Source: Gemmatimonas sp.
GTDB lineage: Bacteria; Gemmatimonadota; Gemmatimonadetes; Gemmatimonadales; Gemmatimonadaceae
Direction: 5' to 3'
Assembly: GCA_011390885.1 (NCBI GenBank)
Contig: JAABRO010000029.1
Coordinates: 1-34,241 of the forward strand
Length of the DNA stretch: 34,241 bases
Part shown: positions 17,397 through 22,049 of the stretch, piece by piece
Layout: each line of letters starts with the position of its first letter
Position numbering within the stretch: position 1 is the stretch's first letter
Notes under the pieces: generated by a model
Told to the model about the DNA's origin: nothing
Database searches by the model: none
What the model saw: the letters and a program-made list of their open reading frames with translations, nothing else
Translations under genes and position numbers: made by a program

Positions 17397-17969
17397 GTGT
17401 CGTACGGCACCCCGCTCGAGTCCGCGTTCTACGATCGTGATCCTGCGATCGTGGCGCGCGCCCTGCTGGGTGCCGTGCTGCGTTCGGAGGTGGACGGCGT
17501 CGTGACCAGTGGCGTGATCATCGAGACCGAGGCGTACCTGGGGCCGCACGATCCGGCCTGTCACGCCGTTGCGGGTCGCACCGCACGCACCTGGCATCTC
17601 TTCGGGCCGCCGGGCACGGCCTATGTGTACTTCATCTACGGCATGCACTGGTGCGTGAATGCCGTCACGCGCGAGGACGGCTACGGCAGCGCCGTGCTGA
17701 TCCGCGCCCTCGAGCCGCTCGAAGGGGTGGAGGTCATGCGTATGCGTCGACCAAAGGCGCGCCGCGACCGGGAGCTGTGCAACGGCCCCGGCAAGCTGTG
17801 CGCCGCACTCGGGATCACGCGCGCGCAGGACGGCGCGAGGCTGCAGCAGGGCGTGCTTACCATCCACGCCGGCGCCGAGGTGCCCGATGCCGAGGTGGAG
17901 GTGACGCCGCGCATCGGGATCAGCAAGGCCGCTGATTGGCCGCTGCGCTGGGTGCGTGTGCGGCGGTAG
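17397..17969 (+). CDS. mpg: DNA-3-methyladenine glycosylase (AAG/MPG family)
   Basis: This 190-aa base-excision-repair enzyme releases alkylated and deaminated purines from DNA. The GTG start at 17397 is the only reasonable one after the upstream hairpin. Family motifs are clear: GVIIETEAYLGPHDPACHA carries the catalytic Glu that activates water, RTWHLFGPPGTAYVYFIYGMHWCVN contains the DNA-intercalating Tyr region, and LCNGPGKLCAALGI is the C-terminal signature. The length fits bacterial members. No operon partner follows; it is convergent with the M14 peptidase gene across a palindromic gap. Confidence 0.95.
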   Translation: MSYGTPLESAFYDRDPAIVARALLGAVLRSEVDGVVTSGVIIETEAYLGPHDPACHAVAGRTARTWHLFGPPGTAYVYFIYGMHWCVNAVTREDGYGSAVLIRALEPLEGVEVMRMRRPKARRDRELCNGPGKLCAALGITRAQDGARLQQGVLTIHAGAEVPDAEVEVTPRIGISKAADWPLRWVRVRR

Positions 17970-18008
17970 CGATCCGCTCTTTGCTGTACCAGCCGCAGTT
18001 CTGCACGG

Positions 18009-18202
18009 CTCGTCCCTCGCGCCTCGCCGCTTCCCGCTTGCCGCCGTTCCGCGCGATGGGGGCACGAGGTCGCGATGGCAGCCCAACAGTGCCGCGAGAA
18101 ACTGCCCAACATCTCACTCTCGTGCGCCCGTCGCCCTGAACGGCGGCAAGCGGGAAGCGGCGAGCCACGAGGCGCGAGCATCCAAGGACTGCGCGCCTCG
18201 TG
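18009..18202. repeat. Long imperfect palindromic element in a convergent intergenic gap
   Basis: Arms at 18023-18049 and 18138-18164 are perfect 27-bp inverted repeats (CTCGCCGCTTCCCGCTTGCC... against its complement). Pairing continues inward for about 19 bp with four mismatches (CGATGGGGGCACGAG against CTCGTGCGCCCGTCG). Outward, the right arm has an extra CCACGAG before GCGCGAG pairs again. A second hairpin, CACGAGGCGCG (18166-18176) with CGCGCCTCGTG (18192-18202), sits at the right end. The element fills nearly the whole 17970-18216 gap and contains no plausible gene. It may be a bidirectional terminator or a REP/MITE-like mobile repeat. Symmetry is seen; mobility is inference. Confidence 0.7.
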
Positions 18203-18216
18203 CTCGTTACCGTGCC

Positions 18217-20847
18217 TTACTGCACTCCACCAAAGTACAGCGCATTGAACAGCAGCCGGAACGTCCCGTACGCCTGCGCGCGATGCTGCGGCCGGAAGCC
18301 GAACAGCACGGCGTGTCCGTCGCCCGCCGACACCCGGACCATCGCAGCGCGCCGCGCGATGGTCTCGGCGCCGTCGAGATAGCCGCTCATCAGGATGTCA
18401 TCGGCCTGCTCGGGGTAGCGCGCCACCACTTCGACCGGCGCGTCCTGCGGCACCTCGAAGGTGAGGCTGTTCGTGAAGTACACCGCGGTTGTGTCGCTCG
18501 CGCTCGTGCCGAGCACATGGCGCGTGTTCACGAGCGTGCGCAGGATCGAGCCGGGCGCGTACGGTGTGGTGCGCGCGCGCGCGACGGCGGGCTGATCGCC
18601 GCCGGGATTGGCCTCTCCGGTGCGATTGCCGCCGGCGATCAGGCGCACCGGCGCACCGAGCCGCTCCACCGCGAACTCGCTCGCGTGGTCGAGCAGCACG
18701 AGCGTGCCACCGGCGCGCGTGAAGTCGGCGAGCGCCGCGAGTCCCTGCTCCCCGAGCCCGCCCGCATACGGGGCCGGCGCCTCGCGCGATGAGAGGCCGT
18801 TCTGCATCTGCACGAGCGGCATGTCGGGCACCACGATCACGTCGAAGCGACGCGCGAGGTTGCCGGCGCGGGCCATGGAATCGGTGAGCGTGGTGAAGGG
18901 CACGCCGTGCTGCTCGAACACCCACCGCGTCCACCCTTCATCCATGTTCGCGGTCCACGGCTTGTAGAGCGCGATGCGCGGCGCGCGCACCGTCTCGCCG
19001 GCGGGCATGCGCGAGACGGCGTGCACCTGGTGCGCGCACAGCGGTTCGTCGCCGAGCGCGCGCGCCGAGGGAAGCCGGTCGAGCACCACGGTGCCGGCGG
19101 GCAGTGTCTGCCCCTCGCGCGTGGTGACCGGGGCGCTCGCGCGACGGGCGCGCCCGCCCGCGCCGAGCGCGCGCGCGAGCACCGCGTAGGCGCGCGTGTC
19201 CCGCAGGTCGAGCGCGACCGGACCTCGCACCGTGCTCGCGGGGCAGCTGGCGGCGCGATCGTGCAGCGCCGCGATGGGTGCGGCCGAAACCGCGCGCAGC
19301 GGCGCATCGGTGACCGGTTCCGCGATCACGCCGAGCTGCATGGGAAGCGTCCACCCTGCCACGTCGTACGGCGGCTCGACCGGCCCGCCGGCGTAGGCCC
19401 GGATGCTCGGGAAGCGCTGCACCTCGAGCAGGTCCTTGGCGTGCGCGCGGAACGGCTGCGCGAGGTCCACCACGTACGCACCGGCGGCGTACTCACGACC
19501 GTTCGCGCGGAACGGCGCCGTCGCGCGGCTCACTTCCACGCCGCCGAGCCGCAGCACCTCGACCAGCCGCTGCACGGCGCTCGGGTCGCGCTGGCCGGCG
19601 GGAATCACGTACGCGTACGGTGCCTCGGAGGCGCCGAGCGCGAGCTGCTTGCGGCCGACCTGCACATGATTGCGCACGAACGACTCGCGCTGCGTGGACG
19701 CCAGCTCGAGCAGCGCCTCGGCGGCGATGCGCTCGTAGTCCATGATGTCCCGAAGGCGCCACGTGCCGCCCTGCCACGGATTCGGGAAGTTCACCTTGCG
19801 CTCGTACGTGGGGAGGCCGCGCGGGTGCCCGGTGAGCTCCTCCACGCGCTGCGTGACCGGGGTGGCAATGTTCGCGCTCGCCGCCTCGGTGAGCAGCCCC
19901 ACCATGTTGTGGCGCGTGGGGGTGGAGCGCGCGCCGCCGTGCCACCACAGGTCGTACGTGACGCCGTCGCCCACGCCGGTCTTCCCCTCGGCTTCGAGCG
20001 CGTACTGCATCTGCATGCCGATCAGGTTGATGCCGCGCACGAGCAGCGGATCGACGTTCGGATTGATCGGGTCCACGTGCGGCGGCACCGTCATGCGCAT
20101 GCCGCGATTGCCCTGCTGGTGCACATCATAGAACACCTGCGGGAACCAGCGCCGGTACAGCACGTCGGTCACCAGCTTCGTTTCCTGCTGCGTGACCATG
20201 AACCAGTCGCGATTGTTGTCGTGCCCGGTGTACACGTGGTACAGCCAGGGCAGGGTGCCCCCCTCGAACGGGGTGCCCACGTTCCGCCGGTACCAGTCGG
20301 TGATCATCTGCTGGCCGTCCGGATTCATGGACGGCACGAGCATGATCACCACGTTCTCGAGGCGCTGCTGCAGCGTGTCCACCGTGGTGAGGCGGTACGC
20401 CAGCTCCATCGCCATCTGCGAGGCGCCGATCTCGTTCGAGTGCAGGTTGCACGAGACGAACACGACGACCGGCTGCTCGGCCACCAGTCGCGCCTCGTCG
20501 GCGGCGCTCAGCCCGCGCGGATCGGCGAGCCGCGCCTGCGCGGCGCGAATCGATTCGAGGCGCGCGATGTTGCGGGGCGACGAGATGGCCGCGACCACGA
20601 ACGGCTTGCCCTGCGTGGACAGCCCCAGCGTGTCGAGCTTCATCTGCTGTGGCCGCGCCTTGGCGAGCGCGTCGAAGTAGGCCGTGATCTGCGGCCAGTC
20701 GGCGAGCACGCGGTCGGCGCCGATGTCGAGCCCGGTGTGCGCGGCCGGCGTGGGCACGCCGGCCACGGGGCGGATCGGCTGTGCCTCGACCGTCACGGCC
20801 GTGGTGAGCGCGAAGCCCGCCGCGAACGCGCGTGCGGCGCGGCTCAT
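18217..20847 (-). CDS. Secreted M14-family zinc carboxypeptidase-like protein
   Basis: ATG 20847 overlaps the kbl stop as ATGA and gives 876 aa. Residues 1-22 are a signal peptide (RAFAAGFALTTAVTVEA), so it is exported. The peptidase domain occupies about residues 50-400. Zinc ligands are H136 and E139 in NLHSNEIG and H243 in YDVHQQGNRG. The substrate-binding stretch SMNPDGQQMITDWYRRN and GHDNNRDW are typical of M14 enzymes, and MVGLLTEAAS is a plausible position for the general-base Glu. The C-terminal half (about 450-876) is a beta-rich and GATase1-like accessory region (IALYKPWTANMDEGWTRWVF, then GGTLVLLDHASEF). Large M14 proteins of this layout are common in Gemmatimonadota and Bacteroidota. 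The operon with tdh-kbl suggests peptide and threonine scavenging. Confidence 0.88.
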   Translation of the reverse strand: MSRAARAFAAGFALTTAVTVEAQPIRPVAGVPTPAAHTGLDIGADRVLADWPQITAYFDALAKARPQQMKLDTLGLSTQGKPFVVAAISSPRNIARLESIRAAQARLADPRGLSAADEARLVAEQPVVVFVSCNLHSNEIGASQMAMELAYRLTTVDTLQQRLENVVIMLVPSMNPDGQQMITDWYRRNVGTPFEGGTLPWLYHVYTGHDNNRDWFMVTQQETKLVTDVLYRRWFPQVFYDVHQQGNRGMRMTVPPHVDPINPNVDPLLVRGINLIGMQMQYALEAEGKTGVGDGVTYDLWWHGGARSTPTRHNMVGLLTEAASANIATPVTQRVEELTGHPRGLPTYERKVNFPNPWQGGTWRLRDIMDYERIAAEALLELASTQRESFVRNHVQVGRKQLALGASEAPYAYVIPAGQRDPSAVQRLVEVLRLGGVEVSRATAPFRANGREYAAGAYVVDLAQPFRAHAKDLLEVQRFPSIRAYAGGPVEPPYDVAGWTLPMQLGVIAEPVTDAPLRAVSAAPIAALHDRAASCPASTVRGPVALDLRDTRAYAVLARALGAGGRARRASAPVTTREGQTLPAGTVVLDRLPSARALGDEPLCAHQVHAVSRMPAGETVRAPRIALYKPWTANMDEGWTRWVFEQHGVPFTTLTDSMARAGNLARRFDVIVVPDMPLVQMQNGLSSREAPAPYAGGLGEQGLAALADFTRAGGTLVLLDHASEFAVERLGAPVRLIAGGNRTGEANPGGDQPAVARARTTPYAPGSILRTLVNTRHVLGTSASDTTAVYFTNSLTFEVPQDAPVEVVARYPEQADDILMSGYLDGAETIARRAAMVRVSAGDGHAVLFGFRPQHRAQAYGTFRLLFNALYFGGVQ

Positions 20848-22049
20848 GTCAGCAGCCCCGCCTTGCGGCCCGCCACCTGGAAGGCACGCACCACCTGCTC
20901 CAGGTCGTCGCGCGTGTGATCCGCGCTCACCTGGCAACGCACGCGCGCCTGTCCCTTCGGCACGACCGGGAAGCCGAAGCCGGTGACGAACACGCCTTCG
21001 TCGAGCAGCAGTTCACTCATGCGGATGGCCAGCGCCGTCTCGCCCACGATGATCGGCACGATGGGCGTGTCGCCGTCGAGCGGCGCGAAGCCGGCTTCAC
21101 GGATGGCCGCGCGAAACCAGGCGGCGTTCTCGCGCAGGCGCGCCACGCGCTCCGGCTCGGCGCGCAGCACGCGCACGGCCGCGAGCGACGAGGCCGCCAC
21201 CGTCGGCGGCAGCGCGTTGGAGAACAGCTGCGGACGCGAACGCTGCGTGAGCAGGTCCACCACCGATTCCTGGCCGGCCACGAACCCGCCGGCCGCGCCG
21301 CCGAGCGCCTTGCCGAGCGTGGACGTGATCACGTCCACCTCGCCCACCACGCCGAAGTGTTCCGCGGTGCCGCGGCCGGTGGCGCCGAGCACGCCGGTGG
21401 CGTGCGAGTCGTCCATGATCACGACGGCGTCGTACTGGCGCGCGAGCTCGAGGATGTCGGGGAGCCTGGCGATGCTCCCTTCCATGGAGAAGACGCCGTC
21501 GGTCCAGATGAAGCGGCGGCGCGCGCCCTTGGCGGTCTCGAGCTTCGCCTTGAGGTCATCCATGTCGCCGTGCTTGTACACGCCGCCCTGGCACTTCGTG
21601 ATCGATTTGGCGAGGCGGATCGAGTCGATGATCGAGGCGTGGTTGAGTTCGTCGGAGATGACGAAGTCGTCGGGGCCGGCGTGCGTGGGGGTGAACGCCT
21701 CGTTCGCGTTCCAGGCGGACACGTACGAGAGCGACGCGGGCGTGCCGACGAGCTCGGCGAGCTCGGTTTCGAGCGTGCGGTGCAGGGCGAAGGTGCCGCA
21801 GATGAAGCGTACGCTGGCCGTGCCGGCGCCGAACTGGTGCAGGGCGTCGATGCCCGCCTCCACCACGGTCGGGTGGTTGGCGAGCCCGAGGTAGTTGTTG
21901 GACGAGAGCACGATGACCTCGCCGCGTCCCTCCATGCGCACGCGCGCGCCCTGCGGTGACTCGAGGTGGTTGAGGCGCTTGTAGACGCGGTCGGCCTTGA
22001 GCTGGGCGATCTCGGCGTCGGCGGCGGCGGTGAAGGCGGCGTTGATCAT
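20844..22049 (-). CDS. kbl: Glycine C-acetyltransferase (2-amino-3-ketobutyrate CoA ligase)
   Basis: This 401-aa PLP enzyme of the alpha-oxoamine synthase family cleaves 2-amino-3-ketobutyrate with CoA to glycine and acetyl-CoA. Recognisable segments are NNYLGLANHPTV near the N-terminus, ISDELNHASIIDSIRL, MDDSHATGVLGATGRG carrying the pyridine-contacting Asp and adjacent His, and STLGKALGGAAGG with Schiff-base K247. RPQLFSNALPP and the C-terminal GFPVVPKGQARVRCQVSA complete the fold. Length matches E. coli Kbl (398 aa). The start at 22049 lies 31 bp after the tdh stop, and the stop overlaps the peptidase start. The gene pair tdh-kbl fixes the function as threonine degradation rather than haem or biotin synthesis. 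Confidence 0.96.
   Translation of the reverse strand: MINAAFTAAADAEIAQLKADRVYKRLNHLESPQGARVRMEGRGEVIVLSSNNYLGLANHPTVVEAGIDALHQFGAGTASVRFICGTFALHRTLETELAELVGTPASLSYVSAWNANEAFTPTHAGPDDFVISDELNHASIIDSIRLAKSITKCQGGVYKHGDMDDLKAKLETAKGARRRFIWTDGVFSMEGSIARLPDILELARQYDAVVIMDDSHATGVLGATGRGTAEHFGVVGEVDVITSTLGKALGGAAGGFVAGQESVVDLLTQRSRPQLFSNALPPTVAASSLAAVRVLRAEPERVARLRENAAWFRAAIREAGFAPLDGDTPIVPIIVGETALAIRMSELLLDEGVFVTGFGFPVVPKGQARVRCQVSADHTRDDLEQVVRAFQVAGRKAGLLT

Follow-up and report, generated by a model that had tools for sequence, protein, structure and literature searches.

The long imperfect palindrome between two convergent genes of the analysed stretch of DNA (34,241 nt, called here the window) is probably one copy of a lineage-specific, non-autonomous and dispersed palindromic element, which we call family A. 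The window makes up contig C29 of a Gemmatimonadaceae MAG (4.07 Mb, 62 contigs, 95% complete), and about 25 places of this host genome, the window's included, carry family A, so the window palindrome is not a local one-off. Relatives of ~76-86% identity at many genome places are in accordance with the original prediction, which saw here a copy of a dispersed element rather than a mere terminator. The closest named contigs for the peptidase protein beside the palindrome are Gemmatimonadaceae / Gemmatimonas sp. MAGs. The features of the locus are the following:

17397 to 17969, plus strand: mpg, methylpurine-DNA glycosylase, flanking gene (Pfam PF02245, E 4.9e-69)
18217 to 20937, minus strand: M14 zinc carboxypeptidase, flanking gene, start uncertain (Pfam PF00246, E 1.4e-18)
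about 17994 to 18193, no strand: whole family A hairpin copy (arm complementarity, fold, relatives elsewhere in the genome)
17995 to 18006, plus strand: left terminal repeat, variant end GCAGTTCTGCAC; nearly identical in the C24 copy (GCCGTTCTGCAC)
18023 to 18049, plus strand: left perfect arm, 27 nt
18050 to 18137, no strand: inner stem and apical part (CGCGCGATGG...), centre paired less well
18138 to 18164, minus strand: right perfect arm, 27 nt
18140 to 18188, plus strand: right arm as 7-nt words, ACGGCGG CAAGCGG GAAGCGG CGAGCCA CGAGGCG CGAGCAT CCAAGGA (lag-7 periodicity; frame read from the sequence)
18166 to 18202, plus strand: second hairpin, 11-nt perfect arms at 18166-18176 and 18192-18202, which overlaps the main element's right arm

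The genes mpg (plus strand) and M14 peptidase (minus strand) converge on a gap of 247 bp, from the mpg stop at 17969 to the peptidase 3' end at 18217, and the element does fill most of it, as had been claimed, with 23-24 bp remaining at either side. The perfect 27-bp arms were found at 18023-18049 and 18138-18164, and the imperfect extension described for them is part of 84-nt arms (17994-18077 and 18110-18193), 79% complementary overall, around a centre of 32 nt. The CCACGAG insertion is also present and, when read in the 7-nt frame, corresponds to an additional heptad of the right arm, CGAGCCA, while the second hairpin on the right is real, with 11 nt of perfect pairing, but uses the right arm of the main hairpin. 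A chance palindrome was rejected: when the whole window was dinucleotide-shuffled 50 times, perfect inverted repeats within 200 bp reached at most 18 nt (mean of the longest, 12.9), compared with the 27-nt arms. RNA folding, proposed as a check, gave a strong structure: the minimum free energy of 17970-18230 on the plus strand is -154.2 kcal/mol (z -11.0), and none of 200 shuffles was as good. Positions 17400-18900 had no Rfam match at the gathering score; a known RNA family was rejected, the sole match, mir-2290, being sub-threshold (29.4 vs 50 bits, E 0.013). Coding overlap was likewise rejected for the window element, whose three ORFs have no Pfam match.

The 25 places of family A are distributed over contigs C3 (three), C14 (four), C23 (two), C27 (four) and C33 (four), with one each on C8, C9, C24, C25, C28, C29, C42 and C60. 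Blastn with the window element gave at least 66 matching pieces at E <= 10 among the best 40 of 81 candidates, many of them weak or fragments of the same places, and with a second copy at least 65 pieces at E <= 0.1 among the best 40 of 50 candidates. The match at C33:182146 was rejected as a copy, as it consists of short hairpins of the ordinary terminator-like sort, and the matches at C60:114398 and C60:133687 were rejected because no such hairpin was seen there. In the search with the whole element, no second full-identity match of the 27-nt arm was present among the matches listed. An arm both unique in the genome and conserved in place had been named as an argument for a local terminator; what we found are dispersed relatives and a site that is not conserved in congeners. 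Clustering of 37 palindromes (29 at >=75 bits in the fetched stretches, and eight already-known copies that were added) gave 22 members of family A, the window's included, nine of a family B and six single ones. At >=40 bits a 400-kb sample contained 65 palindromes vs 19 in one block-of-3 shuffle, and seven at the clustering threshold of 75 bits. The C23 copy at 29.3 kb appears by eye to be nested inside another copy. Twenty-four places were folded; C33b (partial), C60a (compound) and C23a and C23b (nested) were excluded from the alignment, which holds 20 copies, C33b from the gene-context count (23 copies), and C33b and C23a from the T-tract count (22 copies).

A usual family A copy has the form GCAGTTGAACCC-nCGnG-nCTCGnnnCTCGnnGCTTnnnCTCGGGTCCGTTC-nGCGCGATG-loop-mirror. 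Its ends are conserved (GCAGTTGAACCC.../...GGGTTCAACTGC) or are of a variant type as in the window copy, the variant end GTTCTGCAC being common to this copy and the one on C24. The arms are composed of words CGAGnnn or GAAGnnn, a fixed part followed by a variable triplet, and in the 20 copies they have a 7-nt period with z from 9.7 to 12.0 at lags 7 and 14 (at lag 7, 9.9 for right and 12.0 for left arms) vs 0 to 0.1 in the loops, z-values which are inflated because the copies are related. Two minimal forms of 35-36 bp, fully or almost fully palindromic, were found at C27:3135-3170 and in the congener G004 (C45, near 192505-192533).

Among the 35 consensus pairs, 14 have both bases altered in one or more of the 20 aligned copies. 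Pairing was observed in 90.9% of cells vs 84.3% in shuffles, slid structures pairing in 29-41%, and the covariation score was 0.193 vs 0.087 when shuffled; 0 of 500 shuffles did as well in any of the five measures, in a test whose structure derives from the same alignment and whose shuffles ignore the relatedness of copies. The covariation term of RNAalifold is slightly unfavourable (+0.19 of -40.57 kcal/mol). Triplet words were identical between a copy's own arms in 38 of 90 slots vs 23.3 when shuffled (0/2000), as counted in 18 of the 20 copies, C14a2 and C3c being excluded with an unreadable frame. When arms were ranked as partners, an arm's own partner scored 34.3 on average vs 28.7 for others and came first for 9 of 40 arms, which speaks against the simple model that arms are always copied; in C25 and C33e both arms, and in C3c one arm, ranked their partner close to last. 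The left arm of the C24 copy resembles the window's left and its right arm resembles that of C9, and C25 and C33e are likewise mixed. This together with the partner ranks indicates that both homogenised and mosaic copies exist.

Other long hairpins are present in the host genome as well. Those of family B are even longer (243-409 bp as cut) and are situated at C3:11.5-12.5 kb, C3:33.4-34.4 kb, C14:39.2 kb, C18:41.6-46.1 kb and C27:26.3 kb and on C34, C43 and C56, with 52 matching blast pieces in the host at E <= 1e-4 and a match in none of 24 relatives among the best <=33 candidates per genome. Single very long hairpins outside both families lie at C9:29507-29673, which has purine-rich/pyrimidine-rich arms, C60:14119-14279, C3:4260-4463 and C3:37977-38289.

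Sites of family A copies were also compared in close genomes, the search for empty sites having been proposed originally. At the window site of G003 mpg and the peptidase overlap, with the same sequence in a Gemmatimonas sp. S08.Bin118 contig, and in G001 the gap holds a different palindrome which is repeated in that genome (14 matching pieces). The G001 palindrome is AT-richer (AACAGCAACAGATTTTG...) and is located at C48:2218-2302 and C37:30-31.5 kb of that assembly, one of them in the mpg/peptidase gap. No peptidase gene was found in the 1.5 kb that follow mpg in G004; mpg of G002 is fragmented, and this genome stands outside the window-site comparison. At the site of the C3 copy at 8.5 kb, the gap in G004 measures 76 bp and contains a short hairpin whose end sequence is the same, therefore a related short form. 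Behind the upstream gene's orthologue, G001 carries a terminator-like hairpin and G003 no family hairpin. These last two are not clean empty sites because the downstream gene was not found. The C33 site at 23 kb is practically gapless in G003 and G001, and in G004 arms of the same word type flank a Bor-lipoprotein gene. G002 had no match for either gene used at the C3 and C33 sites. In the G004 insert (C25:71.2-72.5 kb), arms of the family A type enclose the Bor-family lipoprotein gene, which partly adjoins a scaffold N run; as an autonomous element the insert was rejected, its sole Pfam match being Lambda_Bor, and part of it being an N run, something may be hidden there.

Outside the host, blastn with a typical copy gave weak matches in 4 of 40 relatives, one or two pieces in each (E 1.8e-4 to 6.4e-4), among the best <=20 candidates per genome. 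An arm pattern derived from the host genome's own copies and allowing three mismatches matched the host 51 times vs 2 for reversed-pattern controls, 50 of the 51 at hairpin places, and G004, the closest congener by two of three proteins compared, 31 times vs 1, with inner sequences that differ from the host's. Counts were slightly raised in G009 (10 vs 3 in the control), G020 (9 vs 1) and G047 (8 vs 1); the other congeners gave 2 vs 0 (G001), 0 vs 0 (G002, 64% complete) and 0 vs 1 (G003, 88% complete). At least one match was present in 40 of 60 genomes, mostly at control level. The family is therefore concentrated in two congeners, the host and G004, and its inner part has diverged between them.

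Family A copies are found mostly close behind genes. By a hand count, a gene 3' end is at most 50 nt away from 16 of the 23 copies vs 23% of random placements (binomial p 3e-6), these being 180-bp blocks in called gaps of >=180 bp (67 gaps), with gene calls from a crude ORF caller. Nine of the 23 are in convergent, eleven in tandem and two in divergent gaps, and one is unassigned, while sampled gaps of >=50 bp are 20 convergent, 72 tandem and 30 divergent; the convergent excess has p 0.017, and the divergent deficit is not significant (p 0.16). Four copies (C14b, C14c, C27a, C23a) partly or wholly overlap a crudely called ORF. This placement behind stop codons, the compensatory changes in the arms, and a terminator-like hairpin (AAAAAAACGCGGCACCG...CGGTGCCGCGTTTTTTG) in G001 where the host has the C3 copy at 8.5 kb all agree with 3'-end structures made by the host, i.e. 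long terminators or mRNA-end hairpins under selection whose sequence turns over with structure conserved. We consider this explanation unlikely. The copies share the placement between convergent genes with intrinsic bidirectional terminators, but they are a repeated family, far exceed terminator length and do not have a T-tract after a short GC hairpin, TTTT being absent near all 44 ends of 22 copies. Moreover, G003 is without the structure at two sites, its genes overlapping or abutting, therefore no such structure is required there, and a burst concentrated in the host genome and G004 would be unexpected for terminators.

It is quite unlikely that family A represents REP/REPIN/BIME members moved by a RAYT (a Y1 HUH transposase) that was lost or missed. 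RAYT transposases are the explanation given for REP-type bacterial palindromes in the available parts of PMC2817692 and PMC3116915. The conserved ends of the hairpin, its variable middle with compensating changes, its extragenic placement and the lack of a visible target duplication are in accordance with the plan of REPINs, invariant at their ends and compensating in between, as presented in the available text of PMC3116915. RAYT/Y1 was nevertheless rejected as the mover because its profile, PF01797, had no match in the host genome, four congeners and G009 (0/6 genomes), the host at 95% completeness included, while it matched in 5 of 14 known genomes used as control; as the host MAG is 95% complete, a missed RAYT gene is possible. 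Further, neither GTAG nor CGTC is present in the consensus or the invariant columns of the 20 copies, and the stem is tens of bp long. Sites resembling attC, scattered by the host's own integron integrase, are a very improbable source. A full-length intI is encoded in the host at C18:22193-23131 (= L250:2193-3131; TIGR02249, 382 bits, over the NCBIfam cut-off), and a partial one, below the cut-off, at the end of contig C46. Small ORFs and, by eye, attC-like stretches follow 3' of the C18 gene to about L250:6950, which suggests that the integrase reads in the direction of its cassettes. Like family A, attC sites are species-specific folded palindromes in which structure is kept more than sequence, with RYYYAAC at the 5' and GTTRRRY at the 3' end. 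The usual ends of family A, GTTGAAC...GTTCAAC, have by eye the inverse box order, and the copies are far longer and lie outside any array. A strict RYYYAAC...GTTRRRY two-box search found no site behind intI, so the comparison rests on reading by eye, in which the stretches there end in GTTAGGC or similar and look unlike family A; attC identity was rejected on box order, likewise by eye.

From these results family A most likely comprises non-autonomous, REPIN/ERIC-like mobile hairpins, of which we infer the movement itself as well as its direction, i.e. gain in the host or loss in congeners. A copy would become a single-stranded hairpin, on the lagging strand or as a transcript, and a recombinase acting in trans could carry it to new sites. 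Copies would land or survive mostly behind stop codons, where they would do the least harm and form a 3' hairpin; their arms may be re-matched through hairpin-templated copying or conversion, and mosaics would arise by recombination between copies. A secondary role as terminator or mRNA end is possible. A bolder and rather doubtful proposal is that such DNA hairpins spread without any HUH transposase, that their arms, as arrays of 7-nt words (fixed CGAG/GAAG and a free triplet), lengthen and shorten by single words, starting from a minimal palindrome of 35 bp, one arm being re-copied from the other via the hairpin, and that the same process gives related species unrelated families of their own (A, B, another in G001). 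Unless this word growth and transposase-free spread are real, family A is new as a variant and not as a kind. Its significance lies in large hairpin families in one species, one of them also in a congener, with no RAYT found, and in 7-nt words and arm matching as a signature by which the growth of hairpin elements and the upkeep of their symmetry could be tested. We found no work on repeats of this type in Gemmatimonadota in titles and abstracts of the open-licence literature, and 'Gemmatimon' does not occur in the available parts of PMC3733652 and PMC2817692.

Compared with known systems, the original suggestion of a decayed MITE or compound REP element is correct in kind, while strict REP membership fails. 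Of the MITE reading, the terminal inverted repeats stood, together with many copies and window-copy ORFs without a Pfam match. Flanks of 22 copies, the ends of several being uncertain, had no consistent target duplication by eye, nor did a cognate transposon turn up: the 51 host matches of the one pattern used (<=3 mismatches, incomplete MAG) included no longer element with family A ends. ERIC and Correia (NEMIS) MITEs are imperfect palindromes of 100-200 bp in intergenic space, and Correia elements produce TA duplications. By description, family A shares with them the size class of imperfect palindrome and the intergenic placement and differs in strong sequence variation among copies and in that no TA duplication was seen. 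Of the compound REP reading, the REPIN-like organisation held, family A being an extragenic inverted doublet that forms a hairpin with compensatory changes. The tag, the short unit stem and a RAYT did not: REPs are defined in the available text of PMC3733652 by a GTAG or CGTC tag next to a short stem (5-13 bp in GTAG, 8-9 bp in CGTC families), whereas family A arms of ~60-80 nt are built of 7-nt words. Dispersed extragenic copies, some of them mosaic, conserved hairpin ends and a variable compensating middle are common to REPIN/BIME and family A, as is the placement mainly between unidirectional and convergent genes reported for REPs in the same source, and the REPIN plan would thus seem to be the nearest model for family A.
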